Of a DNA stretch of 64,000 nucleotides, positions 61,234 to 64,000 are shown piece after piece (positions within the stretch are counted from its first letter, which is position 1; every line of letters begins with the position of its first letter). Source of the DNA: Butyrivibrio hungatei NK4A153. Lineage in GTDB: Bacteria; Bacillota; Clostridia; Lachnospirales; Lachnospiraceae. The notes under the pieces were generated by a model that had not been told where the DNA came from, ran no database searches, and was given only the letters and a program-made list of their open reading frames with translations. The position numbers were made by a program, and so were the translations under genes. The stretch spans positions 165,588-229,587 of the forward strand of contig NZ_AUJY01000001.1 in assembly GCF_000424465.1 (NCBI RefSeq), given 5' to 3'.

Positions 61234-62001
61234 ATGGACATTTATTTTGAATTACTAAAGCATCCAGTGTTTTCAATTGAAGATGTTTGCACGTATATAG
61301 AAAATGCGCGCACCGCCCGCGTTTCTCTTGAAAAGATGATGGGAAGTGGCAAGGTGCTTAAAATACGCAATGGCTTGTATACATGCGTAAGTGGAGAAAA
61401 TGGTGGACCAGTAGCTGATCGATTTCAGATTGCAAGTGCTATAACATCTACATCCTATGTATCGCATCATTCAGCGTTTGAGTACTATGGAGTATCAGAT
61501 CAGGTCTTTAATGAAGTATATGTTAGTTCACAGACACGATTTCAAGATTTCTATTTTGATGGATATAACTATCATTTTATCCGCGCTAAAATCACTGATG
61601 GCGTTTACACTCCCGAATATAGTGGTGGTATCAAGATAACAGATAAAGAGCAGACAATGCTTGATTCAATTAAAGACATGAATCGTATTGCAGGACTGGA
61701 AGAGGTTATTTCTTGCATGACTTCTTTTAAACTTCTTGATGAAGAAAAAATATTGAAATATCTTAGAAAATACGACAGCATATTTTTGTGTCAGAAGGTA
61801 GGTTTTCTAACTGAATTATTTCAGGAGGAGCTTGGCATAAGCACTGATTTCTTAAATGCATGCGAAGATATGATTGGAAATTCAAAACGTTATTTGACTG
61901 AAGATGCAATAGAAGTAGCATATTCAAGAAGATGGAAACTCGTTTATCCGGAAAATATTAAATACATAAAGAATGGGGAATTTTTAGATGCCGACATTTA
62001 A
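61234..62001 (+). CDS. abiEi: Type IV toxin-antitoxin system antitoxin AbiEi
   Basis: A 255-residue protein of the AbiEi family. The N-terminal winged helix (FSIEDVCTYIENARTARVSL, then VLKIRNGLYTCVSG) is the DNA-binding domain that autorepresses the operon; the middle has the typical SYVSHHSAFEYYGVSDQVF block; the C-terminal domain counteracts the toxin. ATG 61234 has TTGGAG about 10 nt upstream. Its last 14 bp overlap the toxin gene. The pair blocks phage spread by abortive infection in Lactococcus and Streptococcus. It lies in an accessory interval at the 3' end of rlmD. Confidence 0.88.
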   Translation: MDIYFELLKHPVFSIEDVCTYIENARTARVSLEKMMGSGKVLKIRNGLYTCVSGENGGPVADRFQIASAITSTSYVSHHSAFEYYGVSDQVFNEVYVSSQTRFQDFYFDGYNYHFIRAKITDGVYTPEYSGGIKITDKEQTMLDSIKDMNRIAGLEEVISCMTSFKLLDEEKILKYLRKYDSIFLCQKVGFLTELFQEELGISTDFLNACEDMIGNSKRYLTEDAIEVAYSRRWKLVYPENIKYIKNGEFLDADI

Positions 62002-62932
62002 TAGACAAGAGCTTGATAATAAAGCAAGGGGATACGGCTTTAACAGGGATACTTTTGAGAAAGTGGTCAGGCTTAAACAAATACTTACATTTATTAACAC
62101 AGATGAGTACCTAAAGGAGCATTTGCTCTTGAAAGGCGGTACAGCAATCAATCTTACTGTGTTTGATTTGCCAAGGCTGTCAGTGGATATTGATCTTGAT
62201 TTTGTTCCCAATATGTCTCGTGAGGGGACCGCTGATTCGAGAGAAATTGTTACTGGTATTATTAAGCGGTACATGGACGAAGAAGGGTATACGCTTTCCG
62301 CTGATTCACGTTTTAGCCATAGTCTTGATGCTTTTCACTACAACTATATAAATGCAGCAGGGAATAAAGATATGATTAAGATAGAAATAAACTATTCCCT
62401 TAGAGCGCATGTACTTGAGCCTGAGAATCGTGTGATAATAACGGATGCGTTTGGAGACAGGATTTTTATTAAGACAGTTGCTGCTATGGAAATATTTGCA
62501 GCTAAAACCAATGCCCTTATGAGCAGAGCTGCAGCGCGAGATTTATATGATTTTTGCAACATGATAGATTATGATACTTTTGCTGATAGAGAGGAACTTT
62601 TTAGGAAATGTATCATATTTTATGCAACTATCTCTGCTAAAAATGTAAATAAGACTTTTGATACAAAAGCAATTGATGGCTTGAAATTCATGAGAATACG
62701 AGCAGATCTTTTCCCTGTGATTGCTGAGAAATCAAATTTCGATTTGGAAGGCAAGAAGAAACAGGCAAAAGAGTATATCGCAAAACTCATGATTCCGACT
62801 GAAAAAGAAACAGAGTATATGGAAAGATTTATACAGAAAGAGTATAGGCCAGAACTACTCTTTGATGATGAAAACATAGTAAGCAGAATCGCCGAGCATC
62901 CGATGGCATTATGGAAATGCAGAAAAAGCTAG
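61988..62932 (+). CDS. abiEii: Type IV toxin-antitoxin system toxin AbiEii, nucleotidyltransferase
   Basis: A 314-residue nucleotidyltransferase (DUF1814). Motif I LLLKGGTAINL (about residues 45-55) and the metal motif LSVDIDLDFVP (about 65-75) are intact; the conserved lysine-containing MIKIEINYSLR and the RAAARDLYDFCNMIDY block (about 180-195) complete the active site. AbiEii-type toxins transfer nucleotides, for example CMP onto tRNA acceptor ends in the mycobacterial relatives, halting translation. All key residues appear present, so the toxin is probably active. Overlap with abiEi enforces coupled translation. Confidence 0.88.
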   Translation: MPTFNRQELDNKARGYGFNRDTFEKVVRLKQILTFINTDEYLKEHLLLKGGTAINLTVFDLPRLSVDIDLDFVPNMSREGTADSREIVTGIIKRYMDEEGYTLSADSRFSHSLDAFHYNYINAAGNKDMIKIEINYSLRAHVLEPENRVIITDAFGDRIFIKTVAAMEIFAAKTNALMSRAAARDLYDFCNMIDYDTFADREELFRKCIIFYATISAKNVNKTFDTKAIDGLKFMRIRADLFPVIAEKSNFDLEGKKKQAKEYIAKLMIPTEKETEYMERFIQKEYRPELLFDDENIVSRIAEHPMALWKCRKS

Positions 62933-63900: not shown

Positions 63901-63928
63901 TTGACTTTTGAGATGCTGATGCTATAAT
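63901..63928 (+). promoter_or_regulatory. Promoter directly before the tandem repeats
   Basis: TTGACT (63901-63906), 16-bp spacer, TATAAT (63923-63928, exact consensus). Predicted start about 63935, that is 4 nt before the first repeat. Confidence 0.8.
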
Positions 63929-63938
63929 ACAATTAATC

Positions 63939-64000
63939 GGGAGAGCTCCTGCCATATAAGTGGAGAAGTTTAAACTCGGGTGAGTCCCTACCATATAAGT
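63939..64000 (+). ncRNA. 39-nt tandem repeat, candidate ToxI-type antitoxin RNA (type III toxin-antitoxin)
   Basis: The first unit starts GGGAGAGCTCCTGCC (63939) and the second GGGTGAGTCCCTACC (63978), each followed by ATATAAGT; 19 of 23 aligned bases agree and the period is 39 nt. The window ends inside the second unit. Strong promoter plus short tandem repeats and no open frame is the layout of ToxI/AntiQ antitoxin RNAs; the GGTGA, CTACC and AAGTG elements resemble, from memory, the ToxI repeat of Pectobacterium. The RNA folds into pseudoknots that bind the endoRNase ToxN, whose gene would be expected just beyond the edge. Neither the repeat number nor the toxin can be seen here. Confidence 0.6.

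Follow-up and report, generated by a model that had tools for sequence, protein, structure and literature searches.

A predicted ToxIN-family toxin-antitoxin locus in Butyrivibrio hungatei NK4A153, and toxin-free ToxI-like units that may act as decoys

The locus at the right edge of the window

We analysed a 64,000-nucleotide (nt) stretch of contig NZ_AUJY01000001.1 from Butyrivibrio hungatei NK4A153 (the window; G000:C1:165588-229587, where G000 is the source genome). At its right edge lie the promoter and the start of what is very probably a type III toxin-antitoxin locus of the ToxIN family, in which two predicted pseudoknot repeats would silence a predicted ToxN/AbiQ endoribonuclease. The window edge at 64000 splits repeat unit 2, the final 14 nt of which lie beyond. 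The same contig continued past the window is called L002 (L002 position + 60412 = window position). Read in this way, the locus starts with the promoter, continues with two 39-nt repeats and a terminator hairpin, and ends with an open reading frame (ORF) of 179 amino acids (aa).

63901..63928, plus strand: sigma-70 type promoter TTGACT-16-TATAAT of the antitoxin array, 11/12 consensus positions
63937..63975, plus strand: ToxI-type repeat unit 1, stem 2 CUCC/GGAG, A.G at the third position of stem 1
63976..64014 (L002 3564-3602), plus strand: ToxI-type repeat unit 2, stem 2 UCCC/GGGA, third stem-1 pair U-A
L002 3605-3632, off-window: terminator hairpin of 12 bp between array and toxin gene
L002 3648-4187, off-window: ToxN/AbiQ-family toxin gene, 179 aa, GAGG four bases 5' of ATG

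A sequence-only reading of the window had proposed a type III (ToxIN/AbiQ-like) locus here from a consensus-quality promoter and a 39-nt tandem unit without an ORF. The continued contig bears this out: the second repeat is completed past 64000, and the short terminator and the toxin ORF of about 160-200 aa that were to be looked for are present as the 12-bp hairpin and the intact 179-aa ORF. The promoter, called by consensus only, has TG before its -10 element. The array holds 2.1 copies, and its units match at 32/39 positions (2000 dinucleotide-shuffled versions of the 248-nt stretch gave at most 26). Of the listed ORFs of at least 50 aa, just one overlaps the repeats, a minus-strand frame of 61 aa (L002 3397-3582). 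The claimed order of GGTGA, CTACC and AAGTG is exact in unit 2 and not in unit 1, which reads GGAGA, CTGCC and AAGTG.

In the ToxI core, two G-C pairs of stem 1 are conserved, as are G5, A6, U12, A19, A20, G21 and U22; U12-U22 is non-canonical (PubMed Central, PMC, identifier PMC8860590). All seven bases are present in both window units, and each unit fits an H-type pseudoknot, as predicted from sequence and covariation only. Seven differences separate the units; six of them fall in three paired positions and the seventh in the tail. From unit 1 to unit 2, pair 8-26 changes from C-G to U-A, 9-25 from U-A to C-G, and X4-X13 from A.G to U-A. The probability that seven random differences hit at least three pairs twice is ~0.0001, for a pair list that was set after the units had been viewed. 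Unit 1 carries CUCC/GGAG and unit 2 UCCC/GGGA in each of the seven nearest arrays (L002, L003, L004, L005, L009, L059 and L060); thus, the difference between the two units is itself conserved.

Stem 2 is fully paired in 18/18 full units of eight arrays of the window type (L002, L005, L009 and L024-L028; L003 and L004 repeat the units of L002), which were collected with Tandem Repeats Finder regardless of pairing. A scan that required at least three stem-2 pairs gave 39 distinct cores, of which a wider set of 17 was kept and those of other ToxI types were set aside. In the 17, every cell of stem 2 is paired (100%), and 3/4 pairs show both-sided changes. The covariation score was 0.298 in these cores and 0.159 in shuffles, none of 500 shuffles reached 0.298 and slid alignments gave at most 0.147; because the 17 cores share ancestry, the shuffle comparison is no probability. 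The number of further pair types (5, versus 6.1 in shuffles) was not above the control.

The toxin product matches the ToxN/AbiQ family, and the catalytic positions R36, S55, S56 and K58, mapped via alignment to 2xd0, are invariant in 42 rows. A tandem repeat of 34-41 nt lies upstream in 26/43 loci with a ToxN match; this count omits L001 and L006-L008 (duplicates) and L018, L022, L049 and L051 (no BLAST match at the cut-off), and scores the partial match of L034 as a miss. The window repeat type was found in 6/334 genera sampled in the family, so it is wider than one species. What the sequence itself shows is the promoter, both units, the terminator, an unbroken gene, the match in fold, the conservation of active-site positions and the covariation of the stems. 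It is well supported that the window locus is a further ToxIN of a known class.

The predicted role of the locus is that of a suicide switch against phages, with all steps modelled on characterised ToxIN systems. Its own promoter would drive transcription of the array, and the terminator would pass only part of this transcription into toxN, so that the RNA stays in excess. Cleavage by ToxN would separate the units of the precursor, with the cut probably falling in the A-rich UUAAAC tail; the toxin would be held in a ring together with the monomer RNAs. A phage that halts host transcription would cause the unstable RNA to disappear first, and the freed ToxN would cut messenger RNA and abort the infection. 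Such a compact ToxIN, whose units differ by paired stem changes, would be a natural system for asking whether ToxN recognises shape rather than sequence.

Two side observations were made upstream of other ToxN genes. At L033 and L029, the array units diverge strongly, and by eye the stems seem retained in each unit. At ten loci (L035, L037-L041, L045, L046, L048 and L017), one ToxI-like pseudoknot is followed by a hairpin and no second repeat. Both-sided changes occur there in 5/10 predicted pairs, and up to 3/10 sequences break single pairs. This arrangement is possibly a non-repetitive type III antitoxin.

Competing explanations and surroundings

Several observations weigh against the ToxIN assignment. 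The window array has only two units, where P. atrosepticum ToxI required 2.5 repeats and antiQ 1.8 (PMC5086642). The third stem-1 pair (X4-X13) is non-standard in 12/17 units, mostly A.G, and standard in 5/17. The pairing rate of stem 2 in the 17 cores is partly a product of the scan requirement. Searches of the locus against NCBIfam and Rfam gave no match. However, Rfam gave no ToxI family match for the relatives, the phage units or even the published pseudo-ToxI locus of phage PhiTE, and thus its silence on the window array says nothing; a CsrB match (16.2 bits, gathering 71) was rejected, as it mainly covered the terminator hairpin. Finally, ten loci combine a window-type array with a toxin gene. 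The toxin frame is intact in seven of them and broken in the other three, by in-frame stops (L024), a frame break (L027) or a truncated match (L028), with the stems there still paired. Thus, such loci decay, though not the window locus.

These broken relatives would suit a ToxIN relic, homologous to the known systems, that has lost its function and is retained beside other defence fragments, as would the short ORFs without a family match between toxN and the next AbiE pair and the differing flanks in B. hungatei genomes. We consider a relic improbable, since the 179-aa ORF is unbroken, promoter and terminator are intact, and the copy in DSM 14810 has an identical array and a toxin gene with 8 synonymous and 10 non-synonymous differences, for a ratio of non-synonymous to synonymous rates (dN/dS) of ~0.29 from few sites. 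Eubacterium rectale belongs to the same bacterial family as the window host, and the array has just two repeats. CptIN is known from E. rectale (PMC5086642), and both points would fit a CptIN-like system, a ring of two toxins and two RNAs, in place of ToxIN. The toxin is a member of the ToxN/AbiQ family and CptN is not its closest relative; we hold a CptIN-like system to be very unlikely. That the repeat arose by chance or codes for protein is scarcely credible: beyond the low copy number nothing was found in its favour, 0/2000 shuffles reach the observed self match, the differences between units fall in pairs, and the 61-aa minus frame is the only ORF over the repeats.

The sequence-only reading had also named an AbiE system as a neighbour, and this was confirmed by the PADLOC and PF08843 matches below.

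61234..62001, plus strand: AbiEi-like antitoxin of a neighbouring type IV system (PADLOC AbiEi E 5.1e-107)
61988..62932, plus strand: AbiEii-like nucleotidyltransferase, partner of the AbiEi-like gene (PF08843 E 4.7e-24; PADLOC E 1.3e-125)
L002 4726-6323, off-window: second AbiE-like pair, DUF6088/AbiEi and AbiEii

Upstream of the defence genes lie housekeeping genes, recN-, NAD-kinase- and pcrA-like by their translations. They are followed by AbiEi/AbiEii, a helix-turn-helix (HTH) gene, a 63-aa ORF, ToxIN, two short ORFs without a family match, and DUF6088/AbiEii. AbiE-type pairs flank ToxIN on both sides. The block of HTH gene, 63-aa ORF and ToxIN is common to the source genome and two B. 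hungatei genomes, but what lies around it differs: in those two genomes, no counterpart of the upstream AbiE pair was found in the 3-kb ToxIN flanks. This pattern resembles a small defence spot with exchangeable contents.

Toxin-free relatives in bacteria and phages

The pattern GGNGAGNNCCTNCCANANAAGTGG was found in 6/79 genomes of the genus and 7/397 of the family (11 distinct genomes), where its reversed control had no match. In six of them a cognate toxin gene follows the array (G000, G003, G004, G050, G407 and G339, the last with a broken toxin). Two Butyrivibrio genomes, G016 and G017 (99 and 100% complete), carry a two-unit array at different sites (L059 and L060), with promoter-like sequence and a terminator-like hairpin seen by eye; protein and hidden Markov model searches found no ToxN in either genome. 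A single unit is present in two other Lachnospiraceae, G240 (no ToxN found) and G082 (ToxN elsewhere in the genome). In G445 (L066/L036 1500-1700), two window-type units immediately precede another, different ToxIN array with its toxin. The ToxN searches never matched in the 14 control genomes but did recover the gene in L096, the genome of L003, G445 and G082. Orphan arrays may be simple toxin deletions, and the broken toxin genes at L024, L027 and L028 fit such an origin by decay; the 252-bp block that G016 and G017 share at 94% between different flanks fits movement. Searched against plasmids, the array gave short matches, the best of them in Sutcliffiella horikoshii (E 8e-6). In a further Lachnospiraceae genome, a single ToxI unit (L068 1500-1525, minus strand) lies shortly upstream of an ATPase-like gene, as judged by eye.

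In viral sequences, GGNGAGNNCCTNCCANANAAGTGG matched 0 stretches, and a form one base shorter matched four (L052, L053, L054 and L055), of which L055 was taken as chance, since it lies in a 298-codon coding frame. L052 has three units in a 37-nt register with three different stem-2 pairs, followed by a hairpin with a T run (by eye) and then tRNA-Thr. The units have scanner scores of 10, 12 and 10, where a shuffled control of 1.44 Mb reached at least 10 four times and never 12; units 1 and 3 deviate from the core at G5, A6 or G21. L053 and L054 have one unit each, with a tail TTTAAACTC, outside the pattern, that is identical to the unit tails of L024, L025 and L027. ToxN was not found in the records of L052-L054 (0/3; no control matched in that search).

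A second pattern, GGTGNTTYGCYACCN{2,4}AARTGCR, matched 22 viral stretches, which form 18 groups by downstream flank. None has a stop-to-stop frame of more than 94 codons (L085 sits at a contig end). The free Y/R stem pair is Watson-Crick in 22/22 (9 T-A, 13 C-G), and 10/22 continue with CTAGAAA, outside the pattern. As a positive control, the scan recovered PhiTE (L079, 142,349 bp) with its published pseudo-ToxI. In contrast, when the letters of the 3' stem were swapped, the resulting control pattern matched four stretches, all from one homologous coding gene (frames of 291-608 codons). ToxN was present in 1/21 viral records (L096), some of which are fragments, and was not found in Geobacillus virus E3; a viral search by toxin protein found none.

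Other viral candidates were set aside. A two-unit spacing scan gave 20 stretches, of which the 19 besides L052 lie in open frames of at least 236 codons and were rejected. Cyanophage NATL1A-7 was also rejected; the window array gave only E ~9 against named phages. A protein from the terminase region of L052, used as a neighbour query, matched only itself.

Three further observations concern these phage contigs. L052 (7440-7600, minus strand) and L089 (3937-4230), which are different contigs, share unusual ToxI-like units near tRNA genes, GGAAACCCCUUGCC..AGUAGGG and GGUGUUUCGCUACC..AAUGCGA, and no ToxN was found in these records. By eye, a second recurrent pseudoknot-like unit lies beside ToxI units at L074 2540-2630, L091 ~4050 and L053 ~7630; it has a GUCGC..GCGAC-type stem, its second stem closes after UAAUAAA-like letters, and it has no Rfam match. 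Upstream of its ToxI unit, L053 (6792-7013) carries two 6A RNAs and a skipping-rope RNA by Rfam, a phage non-coding RNA cluster.

Among named phages, the ~39-nt unit from Salmonella phage 7-11, taken by itself, matches the differently flanked Escherichia phages XT18, XT32 and XT73, Klebsiella PWKp9S and Erwinia IT22. Used as a 43-nt query, this unit matched 235 of 50,697 phage records at E<=0.1, 66 of them over at least 80% of the query. The 235 records are not independent, since 160 are Klebsiella phages, many of which probably share one T4-like lineage. The unit lies between rIII and 30.9 in T4-like VR20, after an rIII-like gene in KP1, and between tRNA-Ser and tRNA-Glu in IT22; PWKp9S has two tandem units after tRNA-Ile. 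Among the matches listed, several units are covered by the annotation of a hypothetical protein, and phiR1-RT has a partial match covered by that of an rIII-like gene.

The PhiTE pseudo-ToxI RNA is made during infection and suppresses ToxN, and the spread of such escape mechanisms was named as an open question (PMC3475682). In a search of open-licence PMC papers and in excerpts of PMC3475682, PMC5449768, PMC9391042 and PMC10853763, no description of such units in phages beyond PhiTE was found. Free-standing forms comprise the promoter-array-terminator cassette in ToxN-free Butyrivibrio and single or stem-diverse phage units in tRNA clusters or next to rIII of T4-like phages. On sequence, structure and the published PhiTE case, we lean slightly towards the idea that ToxI pseudoknots are also a free-living RNA family, whose toxin-free units may be trans-acting decoys that soak up ToxN from ToxIN systems already in the cell or newly arriving. 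The window array would then come from a lineage in which the RNA also occurs by itself. Given the 22 viral stretches, the four coding-only control matches and the 235 phage records, putative phage ToxI decoys look widespread. If this is true, phages would have a counter-defence ready to hand, and bacteria would be vaccinated against mobile elements that bear ToxIN. With toxin-free units in many unrelated phages, the question of escape spread becomes directly testable with existing phage collections.

Comparison with known systems

The systems nearest to the window locus include AbiQ/antiQ of Lactococcus lactis and ToxIN of Bacillus thuringiensis. These members of the ToxIN family (type III) share the toxin fold (30% identity to the window toxin), the order of repeats, terminator and toxin, and a similar repeat length near 35 nt (PMC5086642). 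In contrast, the window repeat differs in sequence, is 39 nt long and is present in two copies with paired stem changes. ToxIN of Pectobacterium atrosepticum and of E. coli shares the core G5, A6, U12, A19, A20, G21 and U22 (PMC8860590). The toxin identity to these systems is 26%. Compared with P. atrosepticum ToxI, window unit 1 has A.G for the third stem-1 pair, and loop 2 is one nucleotide longer. CptIN of Eubacterium rectale belongs to the same class of system, although the window toxin is clearly nearer to ToxN. The pseudo-ToxI of phage PhiTE is, like the other viral units, a toxin-free ToxI unit in a phage (PMC3475682). In contrast to PhiTE, which alone among the 60 matches listed has a pseudo-ToxI annotation, the other phage units there carry no ToxI annotation; some phage units stand in stem-diverse arrays (L052, L089) and some in tRNA clusters.
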